This document shows, in pieces, positions 29,063 to 62,468 of a stretch of 64,000 bases of DNA. Where the stretch lies: assembly GCF_013112245.1 (NCBI RefSeq), contig NZ_WVRN01000001.1, forward strand, positions 3,290,501 through 3,354,500, given 5' to 3'. The notes below the pieces were generated by a model. That model searched no databases. It saw nothing but the letters and a program-made list of their open reading frames with translations, and had not been told where the DNA came from. Position numbers and translations under genes: made by a program. The first letter of the stretch is position 1, and every line of letters starts with the position of its first letter. Origin of the DNA: Ruegeria sp. HKCCD4315. Its GTDB lineage: Bacteria > Pseudomonadota > Alphaproteobacteria > Rhodobacterales > Rhodobacteraceae.

Positions 29063-29117
29063 GGCGGTCCTCCTGCCAAATCTCTTGCAGACCAGACCCA
29101 AGATATGCAAGGTCCGT

Positions 29118-29314
29118 CTTGTTCTCAGGGCGGGGCGGAATTCCCCACCGGCGGTATGCGGGCGACGACCCGTAAGCCCGCGAGCGGCCCAGACGTGTCC
29201 ACGATCCGAAGAGCGGCAACCGGTTTTCGGACAAAGTGTGGAAGCGCCAAAGGGTGTCAAGCAGATCTGGTGAGAGGCCAGAGCCGACGGTTACAGTCCG
29301 GATGAAAGAGAACG
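29118..29314 (+). ncRNA. FMN riboswitch (RFN element)
   Basis: The hallmark conserved blocks are present in order: TGTTCTCAGGGCGGGG, then TTCCCCACCGGCGGTATG, AAGCCCGCGAGCG, CAGATCTGGTGAGAGGCCAG, then AGCCGACGGTTACAGTCCGGATGAAAGAGAACG closing P1 (given here in segments). It lies 75 bp before the ribH2 ATG and should reduce expression when FMN is high. A short hairpin between it and the start codon could be the expression platform (CGCCGGCAATCGGCG). Confidence 0.95.
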
Positions 29315-29388
29315 TGCAACACGCCGGCAATCGGCGTGCTTGCCCGTGATCGCCTTGGGTGACGTGTCTGTTGCGAAAGGAGATCATA

Positions 29389-44672: not shown

Positions 44673-44748
44673 TGGTGCCTCAAGAGGGACTCGAACCCCC
44701 GACCTTGTCCTTACGAAGGACCTGCTCTACCAGCTGAGCTATTGAGGC
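44673..44748 (-). tRNA. tRNA-Thr (anticodon CGT)
   Basis: Minus-strand cloverleaf, CCA encoded (44673-44675). Acceptor GCCTCAA/TTGAGGC pairs fully. D-arm GCTCAGCTGGTAGAGC, anticodon loop TTCGTAA with CGT, T-arm TTCGAGT. The first pair of the anticodon stem (27-43) is a G-A mismatch; the other four are paired. Confidence 0.95.
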
Positions 44749-50673: not shown

Positions 50674-51003
50674 TTAGCAGGTGTTCTCGCTTCGGTCGGT
50701 CATGGCGATCAGGCCAAGCTCAACCAAGAATGACAGCGCTTCGCTCTGAGAGACCTCACGCTCCAATTGCTTAACCATGCGCTCACGCGCGGTGTTGACT
50801 GTGACTACCACCTCAGGGCGCACTCTCATGCTGGCCCAGTGGCTTGGTTTGTCGGCCCAAGGGGCAAGCTGGTCATCAATCTTATCGTGGCCCAGACGGG
50901 CACGTGCGGTTGACCTCAGGCGCTTCGTGAACGCTCGTCGCTTGTCGTAGCCGATACGGCGTAACCGTTTGTCGGCCACGCGGTTCTGTTCATTCAGTTC
51001 CAT
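50674..51003 (-). CDS. hypothetical basic protein
   Basis: Protein of 109 residues. Basic N-terminus (KRLRRIGYDKRRAFTKRLRSTARARLG) and helical C-terminus with ERMVKQLEREVSQSEALSFLVELG. It may bind nucleic acid. It lies 52 bp upstream of rnhA on the same strand and may be co-transcribed. Family not recognised. Confidence 0.5.
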   Translation of the reverse strand: MELNEQNRVADKRLRRIGYDKRRAFTKRLRSTARARLGHDKIDDQLAPWADKPSHWASMRVRPEVVVTVNTARERMVKQLEREVSQSEALSFLVELGLIAMTDRSENTC

Positions 51004-51081
51004 TGTGTTTCTCCAAAAAAGAATAAAGACGCCCGTTATGGACGTCCTGATCGCTGCTTAGTTCTCTAGTTTGGTTGCCCT

Positions 51082-51113
51082 ATGCATTGCTCTACCAGCT
51101 GAGCTAATGCGGC
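51082..51113 (-). pseudogene. 5' half of a tRNA-Thr-like gene
   Basis: Minus-strand residues 1-32 of a tRNA: acceptor GCCGCAT, T8-A9, D-arm GCTCAGCTGGTAGAGC and anticodon-stem ATGCA plus T32. Beyond that the sequence leaves the tRNA pattern. Its missing 3' half matches the fragment at 56106-56148. Its 5' end abuts the IS5-type remnant at the base. Confidence 0.75.
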
Positions 51114-51301
51114 TTCCAGGCCGCAAACAGCGCAAGACAACTGTCCGATACGACAAGCGCCGCTACAAACGCCGCAATCGGATTGAGATCATGTTTGGCA
51201 GATTGAAGGACTGGCGCCGTGTGGCGACGCGGTACGACAGGTGTCCCAAAGTCTTCCTCTCAGCAATCGCTCTCGCCGCTTTGGTCATCTATTGGCTATG
51301 A
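51113..51301 (+). mobile_element. IS5-family transposase remnant (3' end)
   Basis: The frame begins LPGRKQRKTTVRYDKRRYKRRN and continues NRIEIMFGRLKDWRRVATRYD..PKVFLSAIALAALVIYWL to a TGA, the C-terminal 60 or so residues of IS5-type transposases including the catalytic Glu region. The rest of the gene is absent, cut where the tRNA half begins. The following bases to about 51316 (GAGTCCTGAGCCTA) could be the inverted-repeat end. Confidence 0.8.
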
Positions 51302-51366
51302 GTCCTGAGCCTAGACGCAGCCCATTGTCGTACTTCTGGCGCTGGTTCATAGCTACCAGTTTTCTA

Positions 51367-54300
51367 TTAAGGTTTTCGGGGTGTTAGTTTTTTCTTTGAG
51401 ATGTCTTGCAAGATTTGTTTCGCGGCCGAGTTGCCAGCCTCTGCTCCATTTCGGAACAAACGTTGTGCTTCTACCGAATCCTTGTCGACACCACAGCCGG
51501 TATCGTAGCAAAGCCCTAGGTAGAACATCGCGGTGGCGTCGCCGGCTCGCGCGCTCTTTCGGTACCAGCCGACCGCCTTTGTCTGGTTTCTTTCGATGCC
51601 GTAACCGCAGTCGTAGCAGAGACCAAGATTCCTCATCGCGGCGCCGTTGCCGGTATCTGCACCCTTTCGGTACCAGTTCACGGCCTTCGCCGCGTTTTCC
51701 TCGACCCCGAAGCCGGTCTCGTAGCAGTGTCCAAGGTAGGTCATCGCGTCTGGGTGGCCTGCCTCTGCCCCTTTCCGAAACCAATTCACGGCCTCAGCCG
51801 GATTTTTCTCGACACCAATACCGGCTCCATAGCAGCGGCCTAGGCTATACATAGCAAAGCCAGCGCCTGCCTCTGCCCCCTTTCGGTACCAGTCCATGGC
51901 TTCAGCGAGGTCTTTTTCGACCCCGAAGCCGGTCTCGTAGCAGTGTCCAAGGTTGGTCATCGCGTCTGGGTGGCCTGCCTCTGCCCCTTTCCGAAACCAA
52001 TTCACGGCCTCAGCCGGATTTTTCTCGACACCAAGACCGGCCCTATAGCAGCGGCCTAGGCTATACATAGCAAAGCCAGCGCCTGCCTCTGCCCCCTTTC
52101 GGTACCAGTCCATGGCTTCAGCGAGGTCTTTTTCGACCCCGAAGCCGGTCTCGTAGCAGTGTCCAAGGTAGGTCATCGCGTCTGGGTGGCCTGCCTCTGC
52201 CCCTTTCCGAAACCAGTTCACGGCCTCAGCCGGATTTTTCTCGACACTAAGACCGGCCCTATAGCAGCGGCCAAGGCTATACATAGCAAAGCTGTGGCCT
52301 GCCTCTGCACCCTTTCGGTACCAGTCCATGGCTTGAGCGAGGTCTTTCTCGACTCCGAAGCCGGTCTCGTAACAAACGCCAAGACTGGACATAGAACTTG
52401 GACTACCAGCCACTGCCGCTTTCCGAAACCAGTTCACGGCCTCAGCCGGATTTTTCTCGACACCAAGTCCGGCTCTATAGCAGCGGCCTAGGCTATACAT
52501 AGCAAGGCCAGCGCCTGCCTCTGCACCCTTTCGGTACCAGTCCATGGCCTCAGCGAGGTCTTTTTCGACCCCTAAACCGTCCTCGTAGCAGTGTCCAAGG
52601 TTGGTCATCGCGTCTGGGTGGCCTGCCTCTGCCCCTTTCCGAAACCAATTCACGGCCTCAGCCGGATTTTTCTCGACACCAAGACCGGCCCTATAGCAGC
52701 GGCCTAGGCTATACATAGCAAAGCCAGCGCCTGCCTCTGCCCCCTTTCGGTACCAGTCCATGGCCTCAGCGAGGTCTTTTTCGACCCCTAAACCGTCCTC
52801 GTAGCAGTGTCCAAGGTTGGTCATCGCGTCTGGGTGGCCTGCCTCTGCCCCTTTCCGAAACCAATTCACGGCCTCAGCCGGATTTTTCTCGACACCAAGA
52901 CCGGCTCTATAGCAGCGGCCAAGGCTATACATAGCAAAGCCAGCGCCTGCCTCTGCACCCTTTCGGTACCAGTCCATGGCTTCAGCGAGGTCTTTTTCGA
53001 CCCCGAAGCCGGTCTCGTAGCAGTGTCCAAGGTAGGTCATCGCGTCTGGGTGGCCTGCCTCTGCCCCTTTCCGAAACCAATTCACGGCCTCAGCCGGATT
53101 TTTCTCGACACCAATACCGGCTCCATAGCAGCGGCCTAGGTCAATCATAGCAAAGCCGTTGCCTGCCTCTGCCCCCTTTCGGTACCAGTCCATGGCTTCA
53201 GCGAGGTCTTTCTCGACCCCGAAGCCGGTCTCGTAACAAAAGCCGAGACTGGACATAGCGCCGCCGAAGCCAACTTTTGCGCCTTTCCGAAACCAGTTCA
53301 CGGCCTCAGCCGGATTTTTCTCGACACCAAGACCGCTTTTGTAACAGTGTCCAAGGCTGTTCATAGATCTTGGACCACCAGCCTCTGCCCCTTTCCGAAA
53401 CCAGTTCACGGCCTCAGCCGGATTTTTCTCGACACCAATACCGCGTAGGTAACAAAGTCCAGTACCATGCATCGCGGCAGGGTTACCTGCCTCAGCGCCC
53501 TTGAGGTACCAGTATGCTGAATCACACTCGTCTTGATCGACGCCGAAGCCATGTTTCAGGCAATATCCCCACGCGTTCATTGCTTTGGCATCGCCTGCAG
53601 TGGCGGCCTGATGCAGTGCATTTACCAGACTCTTTGGCGGAATTTGATGTGCTCGAAAGAAATTTCCCATCGCTGCTTCAGAGACATTGGAGAGCGCACG
53701 GTGCGCAATGTCTGTTTGAGCTTCAACTTCGAAGAAAGCTGATGTTTTGGGAGACCGAGCAAAATCTCTTGACAACCGTTGCAAAAAGGCAGCCATTTTT
53801 TCTGGTGCGGCGTTCCACGCTGCCATGACCACGGGTTCCAAAGGCAGTCCTTTTTCGACGGAGCGTAGTACGAACCACTCCCCAAGAATATCAGGCTGTA
53901 AAGCGGGAATACTCTTTGGTGGTCCAGCCGGAGGAAGAATTCCATCTGTCACGGCACAGGCTTCCCGCCAACACGCTGGTTTTGCATCGAAAGTGTTTGT
54001 TTGCGCACCATGTTCCGAAAACTCGATACCATCCGTCATTGTTGCCAGAACCGCCAAGCGCATTGCTGGCACATCCTCACCAATCCAAGGAGTTGAGTTA
54101 CCAAAAGTAGAATGCCATCGTCTTGCACGATTTTTTTCGAGAACCTCGTCAAGCAGTTTTTCGATACTTATAAGGCCAAGGTTGGGGTTATCCTTGAGCA
54201 CTTCGCCCAAGAAACAAGCATAAAGTGGCCGGCCCTCACGGTCTATTTCGGCCAGCTGTCGCTTGATATGGTCTTGGTTGAGCAAGGGACGTTGTGCTAC

Positions 54301-55215
54301 CTCAACAGCGACCCGAGCTAAATCTTCAGGTGAAAGCCGTAGGAGTTCTATGACCCCGTTGGTACCACTCTCGTCTTGAAACCTAGTTTCTGCGATCGCC
54401 GCATCAGCTCCATCATGCCTTTCATTTAGTGCAACGAACCACTCTGCCCGATCACCTACGGCATCCTGGATGCTGCTCTGGTCCCAAGGTTTTCGCTCGA
54501 GTAGCAGAAGTCGCACTGGTTGACGCAGGTCGGTTCGCTTTGCCAATTGTTGTATGATAGGCCTAAGCTCGGATTCACGACCAACCACGTAGTCGGCAAT
54601 CATTAGTGTTGGGAGATGTGGTTGCCATTCTGCCCATCTATTGTTGAATGCGGCGACGTCGCTTGATTCCAGAAGGCCACAATGCCATGAGGTTGAGCTC
54701 TTCCGCCAAAGTTCAAGCGCAAGGCGGCTTTTCCCCTGCCCGCCCTCCCCAGCGATCTGCAGCCATCGAAAATCGCCTACTGACTCAAGAAATGATAGCA
54801 AACGTTTCTGCTGGTCGTCCCGACCGCGAACTCTCGTCGATCGACTAGCGTAATGGCTTGCACGCCGGTCTGCCGGCGGGTTGGAAAGTGTGAGCTGGTG
54901 ATTTGATGGCTTTCTCGCGTTGAGAGGTTCTCGTTCAAATTTGGTCTTGATGGTACCCGCGTCACTCTCGTAGTCCGCCAGTAAGCACTCGTACTCTCTT
55001 TCTGCTTCTTCAGATGACAGCGAACCGCTTGCCTTGATTACAGCAATAGCGTTGTAACGAGTAGGTTCGATCGTGTCGCCGTTTCGCCACTTCTCCAAAG
55101 TTTTTTTTGAAAGTCCTGCGAGTTTGGCGATGCTTTCTAGCGCCATAGATCGTTTGGTCCCAGCGCCCCTGAGATCATCAACCCGATCAATTAGAATTTG
55201 GGCAAACGTCTTCAC
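51367..55215 (-). CDS. STAND-like P-loop NTPase with HTH and Sel1 repeats
   Basis: Protein of 1282 residues. Residues 24-47 look like an HTH (LESIAKLAGLSKKTLEKWRNG). A P-loop NTPase follows: RVRGRDDQQKRLLSFL, Walker A GEGGQGKS (156-163) and Walker B LMIADYVVG (about 204). Residues about 532-1261 hold about 20 Sel1-type repeats of 36 residues, alternating a KNPAEAVNWFRKG and a KDLAEAMDWYRKG type. The plan sensor (repeats), switch (NTPase), output (HTH) is that of STAND regulators and some anti-phage proteins. It diverges from a small ORF. Function is inferred from architecture only. Confidence 0.85.
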   Translation of the reverse strand: MKTFAQILIDRVDDLRGAGTKRSMALESIAKLAGLSKKTLEKWRNGDTIEPTRYNAIAVIKASGSLSSEEAEREYECLLADYESDAGTIKTKFEREPLNARKPSNHQLTLSNPPADRRASHYASRSTRVRGRDDQQKRLLSFLESVGDFRWLQIAGEGGQGKSRLALELWRKSSTSWHCGLLESSDVAAFNNRWAEWQPHLPTLMIADYVVGRESELRPIIQQLAKRTDLRQPVRLLLLERKPWDQSSIQDAVGDRAEWFVALNERHDGADAAIAETRFQDESGTNGVIELLRLSPEDLARVAVEVAQRPLLNQDHIKRQLAEIDREGRPLYACFLGEVLKDNPNLGLISIEKLLDEVLEKNRARRWHSTFGNSTPWIGEDVPAMRLAVLATMTDGIEFSEHGAQTNTFDAKPACWREACAVTDGILPPAGPPKSIPALQPDILGEWFVLRSVEKGLPLEPVVMAAWNAAPEKMAAFLQRLSRDFARSPKTSAFFEVEAQTDIAHRALSNVSEAAMGNFFRAHQIPPKSLVNALHQAATAGDAKAMNAWGYCLKHGFGVDQDECDSAYWYLKGAEAGNPAAMHGTGLCYLRGIGVEKNPAEAVNWFRKGAEAGGPRSMNSLGHCYKSGLGVEKNPAEAVNWFRKGAKVGFGGAMSSLGFCYETGFGVEKDLAEAMDWYRKGAEAGNGFAMIDLGRCYGAGIGVEKNPAEAVNWFRKGAEAGHPDAMTYLGHCYETGFGVEKDLAEAMDWYRKGAEAGAGFAMYSLGRCYRAGLGVEKNPAEAVNWFRKGAEAGHPDAMTNLGHCYEDGLGVEKDLAEAMDWYRKGAEAGAGFAMYSLGRCYRAGLGVEKNPAEAVNWFRKGAEAGHPDAMTNLGHCYEDGLGVEKDLAEAMDWYRKGAEAGAGLAMYSLGRCYRAGLGVEKNPAEAVNWFRKAAVAGSPSSMSSLGVCYETGFGVEKDLAQAMDWYRKGAEAGHSFAMYSLGRCYRAGLSVEKNPAEAVNWFRKGAEAGHPDAMTYLGHCYETGFGVEKDLAEAMDWYRKGAEAGAGFAMYSLGRCYRAGLGVEKNPAEAVNWFRKGAEAGHPDAMTNLGHCYETGFGVEKDLAEAMDWYRKGAEAGAGFAMYSLGRCYGAGIGVEKNPAEAVNWFRKGAEAGHPDAMTYLGHCYETGFGVEENAAKAVNWYRKGADTGNGAAMRNLGLCYDCGYGIERNQTKAVGWYRKSARAGDATAMFYLGLCYDTGCGVDKDSVEAQRLFRNGAEAGNSAAKQILQDISKKKLTPRKP
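51433..53484 (-). repeat. tandem Sel1 repeat DNA, 108-bp unit in 216-bp pairs
   Basis: Nineteen consecutive 36-residue units. Adjacent pairs form a 216-bp higher-order repeat: TTTTTCGACCCCTAAACCG recurs at 52561 and 52777, and the two 216-bp blocks around it are almost identical in nucleotides. This implies recent duplication or gene conversion within the coding sequence. Confidence 0.9.
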
Positions 55216-55346
55216 TTGGTACTCCCGAAATCGAGCGAAGTCTTCGCTCCTCTTCGCTATTCTAACTATGTCAATCCGAATATTTTTTAAGTGTTCTGAA
55301 ATTCAAACACGTCGGGCCCGACGCTCAAAACTTGAAAGGAATAGTA

Positions 55347-55526
55347 ATGATAGAGCGTCTGATATTAATCCTCAAGAAAGCCGTACATGCCGCGTCGTCT
55401 CATCGCTTCAGCTATTTGGGATTGGCTTTAACGTATGGCTGTAGTTGTTTCGGATGGCTTGACAAAGATACCGTGGCGCAGATTGCCACCGTGTTCTACG
55501 TTCTGATGGCAGCTCAGAGGTGCTGA
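55347..55526 (+). CDS. small hydrophobic protein
   Basis: Frame of 59 residues with AGGA upstream of ATG 55347. It has two hydrophobic patches, one around LILILKK and one around FSYLGLALTYGCSCFGW, and ends ATVFYVLMAAQRC. A small membrane protein of phage-like kind is possible. It diverges from the Sel1 NTPase gene (131 bp apart). Not recognised. Confidence 0.4.
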   Translation: MIERLILILKKAVHAASSHRFSYLGLALTYGCSCFGWLDKDTVAQIATVFYVLMAAQRC

Positions 55527-56039
55527 GCCAAGTAGAGTTTCCGTCGTTCGGGTTCGATGCCTCGCCGGCCCACTAAATTACCAAACGACAGAAACTCGGT
55601 CATTGCAACGAGGGCCGCCGAAACCAAGCACACGTTTGAGATGGGCACATCGGAATTACATCGAACCAGCATTATGTTGGCAGCCGTCGCGCTGACCACG
55701 AACCGAAGCATGTACCCGAAGGATCTCAATCGAAGGCCGCGACAGAAAGCAGGGCGGACACGAATTGATACAGCCAACCAATCATAGTCACCAATGTTTT
55801 AGTCACCGTGCCTACGCGCAAGGCAGCCCTTTGCGCAAAGACCAACTACACAACCGAACTTTAGGAAACGGAAATCGCAAATGGGAAACTCTGAAGTTAC
55901 CAACTTTGACCGTCAAGGCGGGTAGTTAGTCCTACTGCCTTACTTGCTGCCACAAAGAAAGCGCTCCAAATCGGGGCTTTTTTTTGCTTATTGGGAACAC
56001 GAGGGAAAAGCGAGGTATCGCGACTCGAAGATGGGGCTT
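55527..56039. other. 513-bp stretch without a supported gene
   Basis: Only short frames without recognisable sequence are seen on either strand. The region links the small hydrophobic ORF to the antirepressor-like ORF. Confidence 0.4.
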
Positions 56040-56924
56040 TCAATGGGGCTCGCTGACCCATTTTTTCGGTAATCCTAATGTTTTATTAGGTTCTTCTGGA
56101 TCAAGTGGTGCCGCAGAAGGGACTCGAACCCCAGATCCATGCATTACGTAATGGTGATGCTGGTGGTGGCCGAATGGTCCCATTAGGGTCACGTTGAAAT
56201 AGTCTGCTCGGGCACCTTCACGGGACACCTTGTCCCAGACCTTTGGCCATGCTGTGGTTGGTTCAAAGTCGTCATAGACATCCAGCACATCACCACCGTT
56301 GTGGGCGTATGGTTCTATCTCCATTAGCTGGCAACGGCATGTTTTCTGACAGAGGCAAAACTGCACCTCATCACCACCTAAAGGCCGATTATCATTTGTC
56401 CATCTGTATAGACCGATGGGTGCCAAGGGGTCGCGTTCAGTGTTGTCCTGAGTTGGCTGAGGTTGTTTAGCTTCACGGAATACAGGCTCAAGACCGATTG
56501 GTTTTTGGGGAGACCAATGCTCCGCTGATTGCCCCTCCAGCACATGCTTATTCATCCATTCTACAAAGCCAAGTGTGGCGATAGGGTTTCGCCCTCTGCT
56601 GGTCTTGTGCAGCAATGCTGTGATGGCACACGGTGAGATGAGAGACCCCCTGTTCTTTCGCTTGTCATCGAATGAAAAAGGGGTTTCAGCGATCTTCACT
56701 TTATCCATGTCATGAATACGGCCAATGGTCTTGCTGTACCCGCCTGACTTAGCCTCAGGCACACCAGCAGCGGACAAGGCGTCGGGTGCATATAACCACT
56801 TTCTACCGCCTGACGTGATGACGTTGATTGGATGATTGTCGATCAGAAGATCGTTGAAGATGAGAGTGACGTGATTCAACGAATTTTCGTCGAACAATGG
56901 TCTGCCGATAGCATCGGTTCGCAT
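56040..56924 (-). CDS. antirepressor-like ORF running into a tRNA half
   Basis: Frame of 294 residues. Residues 1-150 (LDNHPINVITSGGRKWLYAPDALSAAG-type start, then SGGYSKTIGRIHDMDKVKI, AITALLHKTSRGRNPIATLGFVEWMNKHVL) resemble phage antirepressor N-terminal domains, but the match is weak. Cys/His-rich text follows (CLCQKTCRCQL). The last 30 or so residues (MHGSGVRVPSAAPLDPEEP) are a translation of the tRNA 3' half at 56106-56148, so the original end was replaced when DNA joined there. Confidence 0.55.
   Translation of the reverse strand: MRTDAIGRPLFDENSLNHVTLIFNDLLIDNHPINVITSGGRKWLYAPDALSAAGVPEAKSGGYSKTIGRIHDMDKVKIAETPFSFDDKRKNRGSLISPCAITALLHKTSRGRNPIATLGFVEWMNKHVLEGQSAEHWSPQKPIGLEPVFREAKQPQPTQDNTERDPLAPIGLYRWTNDNRPLGGDEVQFCLCQKTCRCQLMEIEPYAHNGGDVLDVYDDFEPTTAWPKVWDKVSREGARADYFNVTLMGPFGHHQHHHYVMHGSGVRVPSAAPLDPEEPNKTLGLPKKWVSEPH
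56106..56148 (-). pseudogene. 3' half of a tRNA-Thr(CGT)-like gene (candidate attachment site)
   Basis: Minus-strand residues 34-76 of a tRNA: CGTAA from the anticodon loop, anticodon-stem TGCAT, T-arm around TTCGAGT, acceptor TGCGGC, discriminator A and CCA. It completes the 5' half at 51082-51113: acceptor GCCGCA pairs with TGCGGC and ATGCA with TGCAT. A lone 3' half is the usual mark of an integrative-element att site. Confidence 0.8.
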
Positions 56925-57782
56925 GTTGATCTCCGTAGATGTTGGGGATGGGTGGTAAGAATAACTTTAAGGGCAGGGGTGGATTTTTCTGGGGTGGGTA
57001 TTCTCGGACAGCCCATCAGAGGACCCCTCACTCCACTTCCTTGCGTGCAACTTGGCATTTCAATCGATAGCGCCCTGATGCAGGGGCATGCCGGAAAGGT
57101 TTGACGGGACCTAAGCCCCGCCATCTCAAAACAATAAATTAGGGAAACACACATGATGTGCCCGATAGGTTCCACTTCAGGGAAACCCAGGGGGCAACTC
57201 ACGGGGAATGCTAGGGTGAGACGTCCAGCACACAGGACGCCCTACCACAGATGGTCCGCTGTTAGTCTTCCTGTCGGTCGGTGACAACGCCATGCTGACA
57301 TCGCCTCGCCCTTCCATGAAACGAGGCAATTCGGAAATTCTGTGTACGGCTATAGTGGGGGTGAATTGATCCTATCTGGCCGACAGGTAGGGCTATTATG
57401 AGCGATAACTTCGAGCTACTGGGCGCGTTCTGTTACGGCTTGTATGAGGGTTAACTCTGACCCAAAGGCGAGCGGTGCGTAGGGGCTATTATGGGTGATA
57501 ACTCCGACCCGCCGACGAGCATTCAGTATAGCTATAGTGTGGGTAAATTAGTTTATTCTTGTATGAGCGATGACTGTTGCTCACTGACCGCTTACTTTCT
57601 GCATGTATGGGGGTGAATTGAGTTTCGTCCTCACGTCGTCTCTTTGGCCAGCCTGTACCCCGCCGCTCTGCTGACCCAATACAGGTTGCAGGTTGCAACG
57701 TAACGTCACCGATCAAGTGGAATTGCCTTAGTCTGGTCTGCAACTTTTGACGGTGTTTTAGGCTTGCCGTGGGTTGCAAGCA
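56925..57782. other. 858-bp non-coding stretch upstream of the antirepressor-like ORF
   Basis: No frame here is convincing. A possible 43-residue frame from ATG 57152 has an AGGG-like site but no recognisable sequence. The right half holds the interspersed repeats at 57349-57623. Confidence 0.4.
57349..57623 (+). repeat. cluster of short degenerate direct repeats
   Basis: Two motif types alternate. Type 1, GCTATAGTGGGGGTGAATTGA, at 57350, 57531 (GCTATAGTGTGGGTAAATTAG) and in part 57604. Type 2, TATTATGAGCGATAACTTCGA-like, at about 57393, 57440, 57487 and 57558, each imperfect. Spacing is 40-90 bp. They lie beside the serine recombinase gene and may be binding sites. Confidence 0.6.
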
Positions 57783-58421
57783 TCACATCCCCCATTTTAC
57801 CAATGCTGCTTCAGCCTTGGCTGGGTCTTGAGCAATTCTGATCACAGCGTTCCGGTTTACGCCTGTGGCCTTTGCGATAACCGAGTGTCCTTGTCCTGCA
57901 TTCAGCATCGCCTGCACCGCATCAAAGCTGGCCCTATCGAAGTTTGGCTTTCGCCCTTTAAACTTCTCGGGAGAGGTGGCCTTGTGGTGTGCTATACCGG
58001 CCCTTTGAGTCTCTTTGTTGGCCTCTGCCTGCGCTTCCGCCATCGCCGCCATGAAGCCAATCAGCGCGTCCCTGATGGCCTTCTGAGTGGGGTCTGTGGT
58101 TTTCCCATCGAAGACCATGTTGTTGATCACGGTCTTGATCGTCACACCTCGGTTGATGAACTCCCGAATGGTGTCTGTCACGTCCTGATAGTTGCGCCCA
58201 AGACGGTCCACCCAACGGACCACCAACGTGTCCCCTTCACGCAGCATATCGAATAGCCGTTTGCCGCCTTCGCGCTCTGCCAGCTTTGTCGTGACCCCTG
58301 AGGTGCCATGATCGGTTACGACATCATCAACTTGGAAGCCTGCCTTGCGGGCCTGCTCAAGCTGGTGGTCGCTTGTCTGTTCGGTTGTGGAAACGCGGAC
58401 GTAGAGAATAGTTTTGGACAT
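57783..58421 (-). CDS. serine recombinase (resolvase/invertase family)
   Basis: Protein of 212 residues. The catalytic Ser11 is in ILYVRVSTTEQT. Further signatures: VVRWVDRLGRN and GVTIKTVINNMVFDGKTTDP..RDALIGFMAAMAEAQAEANKETQ, the long E-helix region. The C-terminal part has a Hin-type HTH (HSVIAKATGVNRNAVIRI). It could resolve cointegrates or invert a segment. The short repeats at 57349-57623 lie just downstream. Confidence 0.93.
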   Translation of the reverse strand: MSKTILYVRVSTTEQTSDHQLEQARKAGFQVDDVVTDHGTSGVTTKLAEREGGKRLFDMLREGDTLVVRWVDRLGRNYQDVTDTIREFINRGVTIKTVINNMVFDGKTTDPTQKAIRDALIGFMAAMAEAQAEANKETQRAGIAHHKATSPEKFKGRKPNFDRASFDAVQAMLNAGQGHSVIAKATGVNRNAVIRIAQDPAKAEAALVKWGM

Positions 58422-59564: not shown

Positions 59565-62468
59565 ATGGCGCGAGCACCCAAAACGCCACCTCAAGTGGCT
59601 CCCTACACGCATGACGACCGACGGGTCATGAACCCTGAGGTCGGGCTTGTGAAGCCCGAGAACGACCCGGAGGTCGGCAAGACTGCATGGTCGTATGACC
59701 CGCACCTGTCGCCGGAGTTGCAGTTTGATGTTGGCCGCGCGGAGATTGAGAAGCTAATCGACGACGCGCTGGCAAGCGGCGATGAACAGGTGATGAAGAC
59801 TGCTCTACTAGAGCTTAGGCGACTGCAGGAACCATATCTAAACTGGACAGGCAAAGCCGAGCGGACATCTTTCGAGATCGACACAGTTTCGCTGCATGTG
59901 CACGAACGCGTCGACCCTGCGACCATCCTCGATGGCGTGAAGAAGAAGCTCGCCAACGGTCAGAGTATGGCGGAAGAGCAGCTGGACTTCTTCCACCCAT
60001 CCTTTGAGGAGAAGCCGCTGAGAGAGGCTCTAGGCTTCTACAAGCATGACAAGGACTGGTCGAACCGGCTTATCACTGGCGACAGCCTGTTGGTGATGAA
60101 TTCGCTGCTCCAGAAAGAGAGCATGCGGGGGCAAGTTCAGATGATCTACATCGACCCGCCCTATGGCATCAAATACGGGTCAAACTTCCAACCATTCACC
60201 AACAAACGGAAAGTCGAAGACGGAAAGGACGAAGACCTTACTCAAGAGCCCGAGATGATTAAGGCCTTTCGAGACACTTGGGAGTTAGGCCTTCATTCTT
60301 ACTTGGCCTATATGCGCGACAGGCTTCTGCTATCTCGGGAGTTGCTTAGCAAAACTGGCAGTATTTTCGTTCAGATCAGCGACGAAAACCTTCACCACAT
60401 AAGGGAACTAATGGACGAGGTATTCGGGCCCGAAAACTTCGTTGCCATCATAAACTATCGCAGCATGATGCCGCTCGAGTCTGGGCGGATCGAGTCAATC
60501 TACGACTACATTATCTGGTATTTTCGCGACTCCGCTGCGTCGCCAAAGTATCGAAACCTGCTTGTAAGGAAGAAATCAGGCGAAGGTTCGGAGTTTAAGA
60601 ATGTGGCCCTCTCTCCCACACATTTCCGTAGCACCACCAAAGAAGAGCTTGAGAACCCTGAATACGCTACCGAGATAGGGGGCGTGTTCAAAAGGTCAGA
60701 CTTGCTTTCATCAGGCTACACGGAAAGCTGCACTTTTGATTTTGAACTCTTCGGAGAGGAGCAAAAGAAACGGGCCAAGAGCTGGAGAACAACCTTTGAG
60801 GGTGTAGAAAGGCTGAAAAAGGCATCCCGTCTATACAAGCCCGGAGCCAAACCATATTTCAAGATGTTCTTCAATGATTTTGGCTATCTATCGCAAGTGA
60901 ACTCATGGCACGACACCATTGAGTTTGAGACCAAGGATTACGTGGTTCAAACAACGCGCACGGTGATCGAACGTTGCCTCCTGATGACTACTGACCCTGG
61001 GGATTTGGTCTTCGACCCTACTTGCGGTTCGGGAACCACCGCATTTGTTGCTGAAAAATGGGGACGCCGGTGGATAACTTGCGACACATCACGCGTTGCT
61101 GTGACTTTAGCAAAGCGGCGGCTAATGACGGCCAGCTTTGATTACTACACACTGCGCTATCCGCATGAGGGACTGAAAGGCGGCTTCGACTATGAAACCG
61201 TGCCGCACATCACGCTCAAGAACATCGCCAACAACCCTGACATCGACGCGATTTACGAGGAAGACCATCCGAAGATCGAGAATGCGCTCAGCCAGCTGAA
61301 CGAGGCCCTTTTGTTATCCCCTCCTAATGACCTGACGGCACCTCAAGGTGCTCGCAAAGGGAAACGTTTGAAATTCTCCGAGGGTGAAACGCTGTTTGAA
61401 TGGGAGGTCCCATTCGACTGGCCCGAGGACTGGCCAGACACCGCCAAAGAGCCGTTTGAAGCCTTCCACACCGCGCGGCGACAGATGCAGGCTCGTATGG
61501 ACGAGAGCGTCGCTTCCCATGCCGATCAGGAGACGCTCTACGACAAGCCGAAGATTGACAACACAAAGCTCCGGGTATCCGGAAAGTTCACGGTTGAGGC
61601 CGTCCCTGCGCCGATTGTCATGGGACTCGATGACGAAAAACCCGTGGAAGAACCGGACGCCTCATTGGCCCGTTCCGGAGAAACATCGCGGCAATCGCTC
61701 TGGCGCGACGAGCTTCTCAAAACAGGCATACGAGGTAAGGGCGGGCAGATGCTAACCTTTGCGGACCTTGAGGTCTTCCCTGACCTGCGGAACCTGCACG
61801 CGAGCGGCTCGCTTGCGGAGAGTGGAGATCGCGTTGTCATCAGCTTCGGCCCAGAGCACGCCGCGCTGGAACAGCGTCAAGTCGAGCTCGCCCTCCAAGA
61901 GGCCGAAAAGCTGCGCCCAACGCCCAAGGTCGTCGTCTTCTGCGCCTTCACCTTCGATCCAGAGGCAGCCAAAGACATCGACGAACTCGACTGGCCCGGC
62001 GTCACACTGCTCAAGGCCCAGATGAACACCGACCTGCTAACCGAGGATTTGAAGAAGAAGCGAGCGAGCAACCAGAGCTTCTGGCTCATGGGTCAACCTG
62101 ACGTGGACCTTAGGAAACTCAACGACGGCAAATGGGAAGTCGAGGTGAACGGCTTCGACTACTTCAACACCAAGACGGGTGAACTTGACAGCGGCGGCAA
62201 GGGCAAGATCGCCATGTGGTCACTCGATACGAATTACAACGAACGGTCCCTGTTCCCACATCAGGTCTTCTTCCCTATGGCGGGAGCGAAGGACGGTTGG
62301 AACAGGCTCAAGAAGACCCTTCGTTCGGAACTGGACGAAGACTTACTGGACCAGTTTCACGGCACCGTTTCCTTGCCTTTCGAGGCAGGTGAATACGAGA
62401 AGATCGCGGTGAAGATCGTTGATGATCGGGGCATCGAAAGCCTGAAGATCATTCCTTTGGGCGGCTGA
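59565..62468 (+). CDS. type III-like DNA adenine methyltransferase (Mod)
   Basis: Protein of 967 residues. The beta-class order is DPPY (IYIDPPYGIKYG, about residue 197), then a target-recognition region, then the SAM motif FDPTCGSGTTAFVAEKWG near residue 484. N6-adenine or N4-cytosine methylation is predicted. The protein is longer than the typical 600-700-residue Mod, with a large C-terminal part of unknown role (LKFSEGETLFEWEVPFDWPED, EVEVNGFDYFNTKTGEL). It is followed 1 bp later by the res-like gene. Confidence 0.92.
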   Translation: MARAPKTPPQVAPYTHDDRRVMNPEVGLVKPENDPEVGKTAWSYDPHLSPELQFDVGRAEIEKLIDDALASGDEQVMKTALLELRRLQEPYLNWTGKAERTSFEIDTVSLHVHERVDPATILDGVKKKLANGQSMAEEQLDFFHPSFEEKPLREALGFYKHDKDWSNRLITGDSLLVMNSLLQKESMRGQVQMIYIDPPYGIKYGSNFQPFTNKRKVEDGKDEDLTQEPEMIKAFRDTWELGLHSYLAYMRDRLLLSRELLSKTGSIFVQISDENLHHIRELMDEVFGPENFVAIINYRSMMPLESGRIESIYDYIIWYFRDSAASPKYRNLLVRKKSGEGSEFKNVALSPTHFRSTTKEELENPEYATEIGGVFKRSDLLSSGYTESCTFDFELFGEEQKKRAKSWRTTFEGVERLKKASRLYKPGAKPYFKMFFNDFGYLSQVNSWHDTIEFETKDYVVQTTRTVIERCLLMTTDPGDLVFDPTCGSGTTAFVAEKWGRRWITCDTSRVAVTLAKRRLMTASFDYYTLRYPHEGLKGGFDYETVPHITLKNIANNPDIDAIYEEDHPKIENALSQLNEALLLSPPNDLTAPQGARKGKRLKFSEGETLFEWEVPFDWPEDWPDTAKEPFEAFHTARRQMQARMDESVASHADQETLYDKPKIDNTKLRVSGKFTVEAVPAPIVMGLDDEKPVEEPDASLARSGETSRQSLWRDELLKTGIRGKGGQMLTFADLEVFPDLRNLHASGSLAESGDRVVISFGPEHAALEQRQVELALQEAEKLRPTPKVVVFCAFTFDPEAAKDIDELDWPGVTLLKAQMNTDLLTEDLKKKRASNQSFWLMGQPDVDLRKLNDGKWEVEVNGFDYFNTKTGELDSGGKGKIAMWSLDTNYNERSLFPHQVFFPMAGAKDGWNRLKKTLRSELDEDLLDQFHGTVSLPFEAGEYEKIAVKIVDDRGIESLKIIPLGG

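Follow-up and report, generated by a model that had tools for sequence, protein, structure and literature searches.

Two halves of one tRNA gene lie in permuted order

How do the two halves of a single tRNA gene come to lie 5 kb apart on the chromosome of a marine bacterium, with the second half first? The window analyzed here, a stretch of 64,000 nucleotides from Ruegeria sp. HKCCD4315, carries on its minus strand bases 1 to 32 of a tRNA-Thr(CGT) at 51113-51082 and bases 34 to 76, including the CCA, at 56148-56106. Along the tRNA strand, the 3' half precedes the 5' half by about 5 kb, a permuted order. A preliminary description, made from the letters of the window alone, had recognized both the complementary halves and their order; the coordinates and strand it gave proved exact, as did its reading of T32-A33 at both breaks. 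It had also proposed that joining the ends of the segment as a circle would restore a tRNA, and the halves, joined with one base between them, indeed fold into a cloverleaf of 76 nt; ARAGORN calls it tRNA-Thr(cgt), and two of its stem pairs are mismatched (T/C at 7-66 and T/T at 49-65). In the unmodified window, neither half is called by ARAGORN, or by Rfam at the gathering score. Rfam places a Y RNA-like RNA over the 5' half at 20.3 bits, below the gathering threshold of 69 (E 1.4); we take this weak match for the shared D-arm.

Both halves match one tRNA-Thr(CGT) type that is intact in related genomes, which we call T*. With the copy from genome G022 as reference (G082 has an identical copy, and that of G177 agrees at 75/76 positions), the 5' half (51082-51113) matches T* at 31/32 positions and the 3' half (56106-56148) at 41/43. 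Over 20 mononucleotide shuffles of the window, the best matches to the two halves of T* reached 21/32 and 27/43; the real match is well above chance. The T* anticodon arm is present in 3 of 394 sampled family genomes, and no intact copy of it was found in the strain's own genome. The halves match the standard tRNA-Thr(CGT) type of the genus at 27/32 and 37/43 positions. An intact tRNA-Thr(CGT) of another sequence type, identified by ARAGORN and by comparison with T*, is resident at 44673-44748 on the minus strand, outside the segment, and matches at 26/32 and 33/43. Since the fit to T* exceeds the fit to the resident and standard types for both halves, both can be assigned on sequence grounds to one T*-type gene, and the resident gene does not explain them. 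The preliminary description had called for a search for an intact copy and had missed this one inside the window; the case that it had named against its own reading, in which such a copy would account for the 3' half and the 5' half would be unrelated, falls away, as both halves fit T* better. As tRNA, the halves look to be probably nonfunctional, because they lie about 5 kb apart, have A33, have lost two stem pairs, and coexist with an intact tRNA-Thr(CGT).

The segment is a single insertion into a stop codon

Each flank of the segment was searched separately in 54 genomes of the genus, the strain's own included; the gene on one side was matched in 3 of the 54 and the flank on the other side in 7. 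In Ruegeria atlantica HKCCD6218 (G010, contig C12), both flanks were matched and are contiguous. The joined flanks of the window align to this empty site through the stop codon and beyond, with no target bases lost: the empty site reads CAT-TA-GGG, and the window reads CAT-TA-(insert)-TA-GGG. TA is the sole sequence common to both insert ends, at 51081-51082 beside the 5' half and at 56149-56150 beside the 3' half, as given by the junction sequence. The contiguity of the flanks in G010 thus shows one insertion of 5,068 bp, counted with one TA copy (51083-56150), which interrupted a 258-codon gene at its TAG stop; aligned with G010 and its homologues, this target gene runs on the minus strand from 56924 to 56149, ending in the TA of its former stop. 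On the same strand, the downstream flank (50674-51081), contiguous with the target gene in G010, holds a hairpin, then a T-rich stretch, and then a 109-amino-acid open reading frame (50674-51003). The comparison with empty sites that the preliminary description had advised was possible in one of the congeners.

Four of five homologues of the target gene end at the point of interruption (258, 259, 259, and 255 amino acids); the fifth has a different C terminus. G043 has a distant homologue of the end of the gene, with its own stop, and no match for the downstream flank, while G027, G034, and G009 have the downstream flank and lack the target gene; the empty site is therefore known from one genome, G010. 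In G027 (L047, 4594-5324), about 730 bp of other sequence replaces the target gene between the same conserved flanks, a variable gene position. The visible effect of the insertion is the loss of the target gene's stop and a 36-codon extension: the reading frame now stays open to 56040 (294 amino acids), passing through the tRNA 3' half. The G+C content of the insert (0.538) against that of the flanks (0.559 and 0.518) is uninformative.

The insert carries a Sel1-repeat gene and insertion sequence remnants

The cargo of the insert is a gene for a Sel1-repeat protein of 1,282 amino acids (51367-55215, minus strand; Pfam Sel1 in 20 stretches, 1.4e-192), which contains 108-bp repeats. PADLOC gave no match to the protein, and NCBIfam gave one above its cutoff, AMEP412, over 16 residues of the repeats. 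Among 58 relatives of its first 520 residues, drawn from the best 7,993 word-sharing candidates scored, Sel1 repeats occur in 43, the window copy included. A C-terminal remnant of an IS5-family (IS1248-like) transposase, identified by similarity, lies at 51114-51302 on the plus strand; the similarity stops within about 3 bases of tRNA position 1, a nearly exact junction. A 140-bp piece (55625-55764) also occurs in 53 plasmid records, in some of which it adjoins an IS110 gene and an IS5 gene, and in two plasmid loci examined an IS110 gene lies between two pieces of the insert, as an IS256 gene does in a third. IS110 and IS5 were considered as movers of the segment and set aside: the ends of the insert are tRNA, not insertion sequence ends. 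A suspected tRNA-like stretch near 55540-55577 was dropped: it had no match at E 0.5 among tRNAs from 30 loci of the strain's own genome, and Rfam found nothing credible there.

Pfam searches of the Sel1 gene and ten frames of the remaining insert, leaving out small frames inside the Sel1 gene, recognized no recombinase, neither a tyrosine integrase nor a serine recombinase. A gene for a 212-amino-acid serine resolvase lies 1.6 kb outside the insert. Imperfect direct repeats at 57390-57619 and 57783-58421 adjoin it and are possibly resolvase sites; the repeat region is conserved in G009 and G010 and in part in G027. Elsewhere in the window, also outside the insert, are a 967-amino-acid DNA methylase of the type III kind (59565-62468; PADLOC MTase_III, 7e-157) and an FMN riboswitch (29117-29317, plus strand; Rfam).

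Searches for a donor, a circular form, or a second copy found none. The 341 bp beside the 3' half had no match in the other genomes of the 394-genome family set at E 1e-5, and nothing else in the strain's own genome matched them better than E 1. The N-terminal 560 residues of the Sel1 protein were found in no other of the 54 genus genomes at E 1e-20, and on no plasmid. A pattern search for the T* 5' half not followed by T33 gave no match in collections of genomes and viral contigs, from which the strain's own genome and near records may be absent.

tRNA-Thr(CGT) genes are split at the same loop in other Ruegeria strains

Among the matches listed for the standard tRNA-Thr(CGT) as probe, at least 7 of 53 congeners carry pieces of tRNA-Thr(CGT) and at least 3 of the 53 carry both halves. 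In these three (G022, G001, and G051), the halves stand in ordinary order, 5' before 3', on either side of a complete tRNA with the same anticodon; the complete tRNA of G022 is T* itself, in opposite orientation. The outer distances are 5.3 kb in G022, 35.3 kb in G001, and 1.2 kb in G051, and the stretches common to both halves are 12, 9, and 5 bp, respectively, the halves in G051 having diverged. Among the matches listed, G026 has a 5' half and a complete tRNA, and single pieces occur in G013 and G020; in G010, a complete tRNA lies 16.4 kb from a 3' half. Elsewhere in the genus, then, tRNA-Thr(CGT) genes are evidently split at this same loop, and the window differs from G022, G001, and G051 in target, core, and order.

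Several of the genes looked up in these elements are of defense or phage type. G001 has BrxL together with a restriction methylase and an NB-ARC protein; G022 has a cytosine methylase, Vsr, and the arm domain of an integrase; and G010 has a cytosine methylase and a VapE-like protein along with a tyrosine integrase. The integrase of G022 is an N-terminal arm-domain remnant only, and a motif scan of the fetched parts of G001 and G051, which cover the 35-kb G001 element in part, found no tyrosine integrase.

The resident tRNA type of the window (44673-44748) is also the tRNA beside the split standard tRNA-Thr in G026 and G051 (L094 and L095), and its alignment pattern occurs in at least 33 of the 54 genus genomes. 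Because this type adjoins split tRNAs and is widespread, a replacement tRNA brought by an element may have become the resident tRNA-Thr(CGT). Among the matches listed, the best match to the standard tRNA-Thr(CGT) in G015, G030, and G038 has an E value of 9e-11, the level of another tRNA; these strains may lack tRNA-Thr(CGT) or have a diverged one.

Proposed integration through the anticodon loop of a carried tRNA gene

The simplest reading, and the best explanation we can offer, at a probability of about 65%, is that a circle entered the chromosome by way of the anticodon loop in the tRNA gene it carried. The donor would have been a circular DNA of about 5.07 kb that carried a T*-type tRNA-Thr(CGT), the Sel1-repeat gene, and insertion sequence remnants, and that integrated once. 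The crossover would have fallen on the circle in the anticodon loop of the carried tRNA, at positions 32 to 34, and on the chromosome in the TA with which a small gene's TAG stop codon begins; it would split the tRNA and leave its 3' and 5' halves at the two ends of the insert in permuted order. A complete cognate tRNA is obtained from the insert only with its ends joined as a circle. The preliminary description had allowed that the segment might once have been circular or been moved by recombination in an anticodon loop; the single unit and the break in the loop are borne out, and we infer the circularity of the donor and the action of a site-specific recombinase.

The enzyme of first choice would be a tyrosine integrase like those that Ruegeria elements carry for the anticodon loop; its action in trans on a secondary site would fit the loop and the poor match of the target. 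A serine recombinase with a 2-bp crossover would be nearly as likely: the 2-bp core, against the 12 bp shared in G022 and the 9 bp in G001, fits such an enzyme better than it fits a tyrosine integrase, and the window agrees with a 2-bp serine-type crossover at TA if the donor had A33. The closest relatives of the G010 integrase in the strain's own genome are weak (33% over 170 amino acids and 23% over 318 amino acids), and that genome has two large serine recombinases, each adjoining a tRNA gene. A large serine integrase of a Sphingomonas plasmid (H21; L055, NZ_CP155751), whose gene runs into the 3' half of an intact tRNA-Thr(CGT), was rejected as a model: a 44-bp repeat (93%) about 46 kb away is the tRNA 3' end, and the integrase therefore does not use the anticodon loop. 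In that record, a 46-kb island with the large serine recombinase lies at the 3' end of the tRNA-Thr(CGT) and is marked by the 44-bp repeat.

Bookkeeping of the junctions allows three routes to both. A conservative exchange at TA yields them exactly if the donor had A33; from a T33 donor, they follow equally exactly if one T was lost and one target base duplicated or if TT was lost and TA duplicated. Outside this bookkeeping, a TT/TA exchange with mismatch repair would be a further possibility. All seven intact tRNA-Thr(CGT) types or copies compared, among the matches listed near the probe, have T33; an A33 in the donor must therefore be assumed, or else repair, or base loss with target duplication.

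The T33 routes belong to a different explanation, in which linear DNA, cut within the T* anticodon loop and shortened there by one or two bases, was joined into a staggered target break, with A or TA duplicated. The junctions follow exactly if T was lost and A duplicated, or if TT was lost and TA duplicated, and capture of this kind is possible; we consider it doubtful, as it gives no reason for a cut in the very loop that recombinases use in the genus and still needs both halves to come from a circle or a tandem copy. The TA repeated at both ends and the IS5-family remnant inside would also suit a transposon with a 2-bp TA target duplication. This is unlikely, since no inverted repeats bound the segment (12/40 in register, with equally good alignments in 171 of 500 shuffles), its ends are tRNA sequence, and the sole transposase is a truncated remnant. 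Misassembly is a concern of a similar, slightly lower order: the 108-bp Sel1 repeats are hard for short reads, and a 753-amino-acid form of the Sel1 protein occurs on a 191,455-base contig, but both junctions lie outside the repeats and are base-exact against the empty site, on a contig of 3.64 Mb.

Two further explanations have very little in their favor. Pieces of tRNA are common in the genus, and the preliminary description had allowed for two separate insertions, to which two unrelated tRNA remnants might be added; the empty site in G010, which shows a single precise insertion, contradicts this, both halves are of the same tRNA type, and we hold it to be highly improbable. Even less credible is a working permuted tRNA gene, spliced from a transcript with the 3' half first. 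Bacteria are not known to have the splicing endonuclease for this. In order and strand the halves resemble permuted tRNA genes, and their composite folds, but A33 stands at both breaks, two stem pairs no longer form, the window has an intact tRNA-Thr(CGT), and about 5 kb separates the halves, against 1 to 74 bp in the known cases covered by a review (PMC3978253).

Discussion

The split loci of G022, G001, and G051 look like the tRNA-dependent lysogeny described in actinobacteriophages (Guerrero-Bustamante and Hatfull 2024, PMC10865867), where, as outlined there, integration falls in the anticodon region at a short common core, the host tRNA is not rebuilt, and the element carries a cognate tRNA: in all three, a host tRNA is split at a short core with a complete tRNA of the same anticodon between the halves. 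Measured against that outline (PMC10865867), the window departs in several respects. The crossover would lie in the insert's own tRNA rather than in a separate attP, a stop codon serves as target, the core is 2 bp instead of about 10 bp, the host tRNA is intact, no integrase was recognized, and the carried tRNA is destroyed. As a point in common, the same account reports four secondary sites in protein genes, at which only a 3-bp part of the core is shared.

Genomic islands of the Islander kind, whose ends are marked by a regenerated tRNA and a displaced fragment, resemble the insert in that tRNA fragments mark the island ends, and differ, as characterized in that source, in that here two complementary, permuted halves bound it (PMC4383910). 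The ordinary pattern of islands at tRNA 3' ends, a regenerated tRNA with a displaced 3' fragment, is not seen in the window. The permuted tRNA genes of algae and archaea share with the window a 3' half that precedes the 5' half on one strand; in the review's summary they have a short intervening sequence and a splicing motif, unlike the distant and likely nonfunctional pair seen here (PMC3978253). In Caldiarchaeum, a tRNA-Thr gene is fragmented and scattered beside recombinase-coding DNA of a mobile element (PMC3293823), and a fragmented, scattered tRNA-Thr gene is common to both cases; that one is archaeal and intron-linked, and is not a permuted pair bounding one insert. Among the titles and abstract openings searched, a scope outside which most subscription papers lie, no bacterial case of permuted tRNA halves bounding an insert came up.

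A more tentative picture is that of a small mobile circle that uses its own complete tRNA gene as attachment site. If this were true, a crossover at the preferred site, the anticodon loop of the host tRNA-Thr(CGT), would produce an entire hybrid tRNA at each end and be harmless, and an off-target crossover at TA would leave permuted halves as in the window. Among the matches listed for the genus, there was no small element with a whole tRNA-Thr(CGT) gene on each side, the two in direct order.

Integration of a circle through its own tRNA gene, the reading we prefer, would mean that a DNA segment can enter a chromosome via the anticodon loop of a tRNA gene on board, producing permuted tRNA halves in a bacterium. 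It would show concretely, with an empty site for comparison, how tRNA genes can come to be split and rearranged. Together with the split loci of its congeners, the locus suggests that the Ruegeria tRNA-Thr(CGT) is a recurrent anticodon-loop target of elements that bring a replacement tRNA, beyond the actinobacteriophages.
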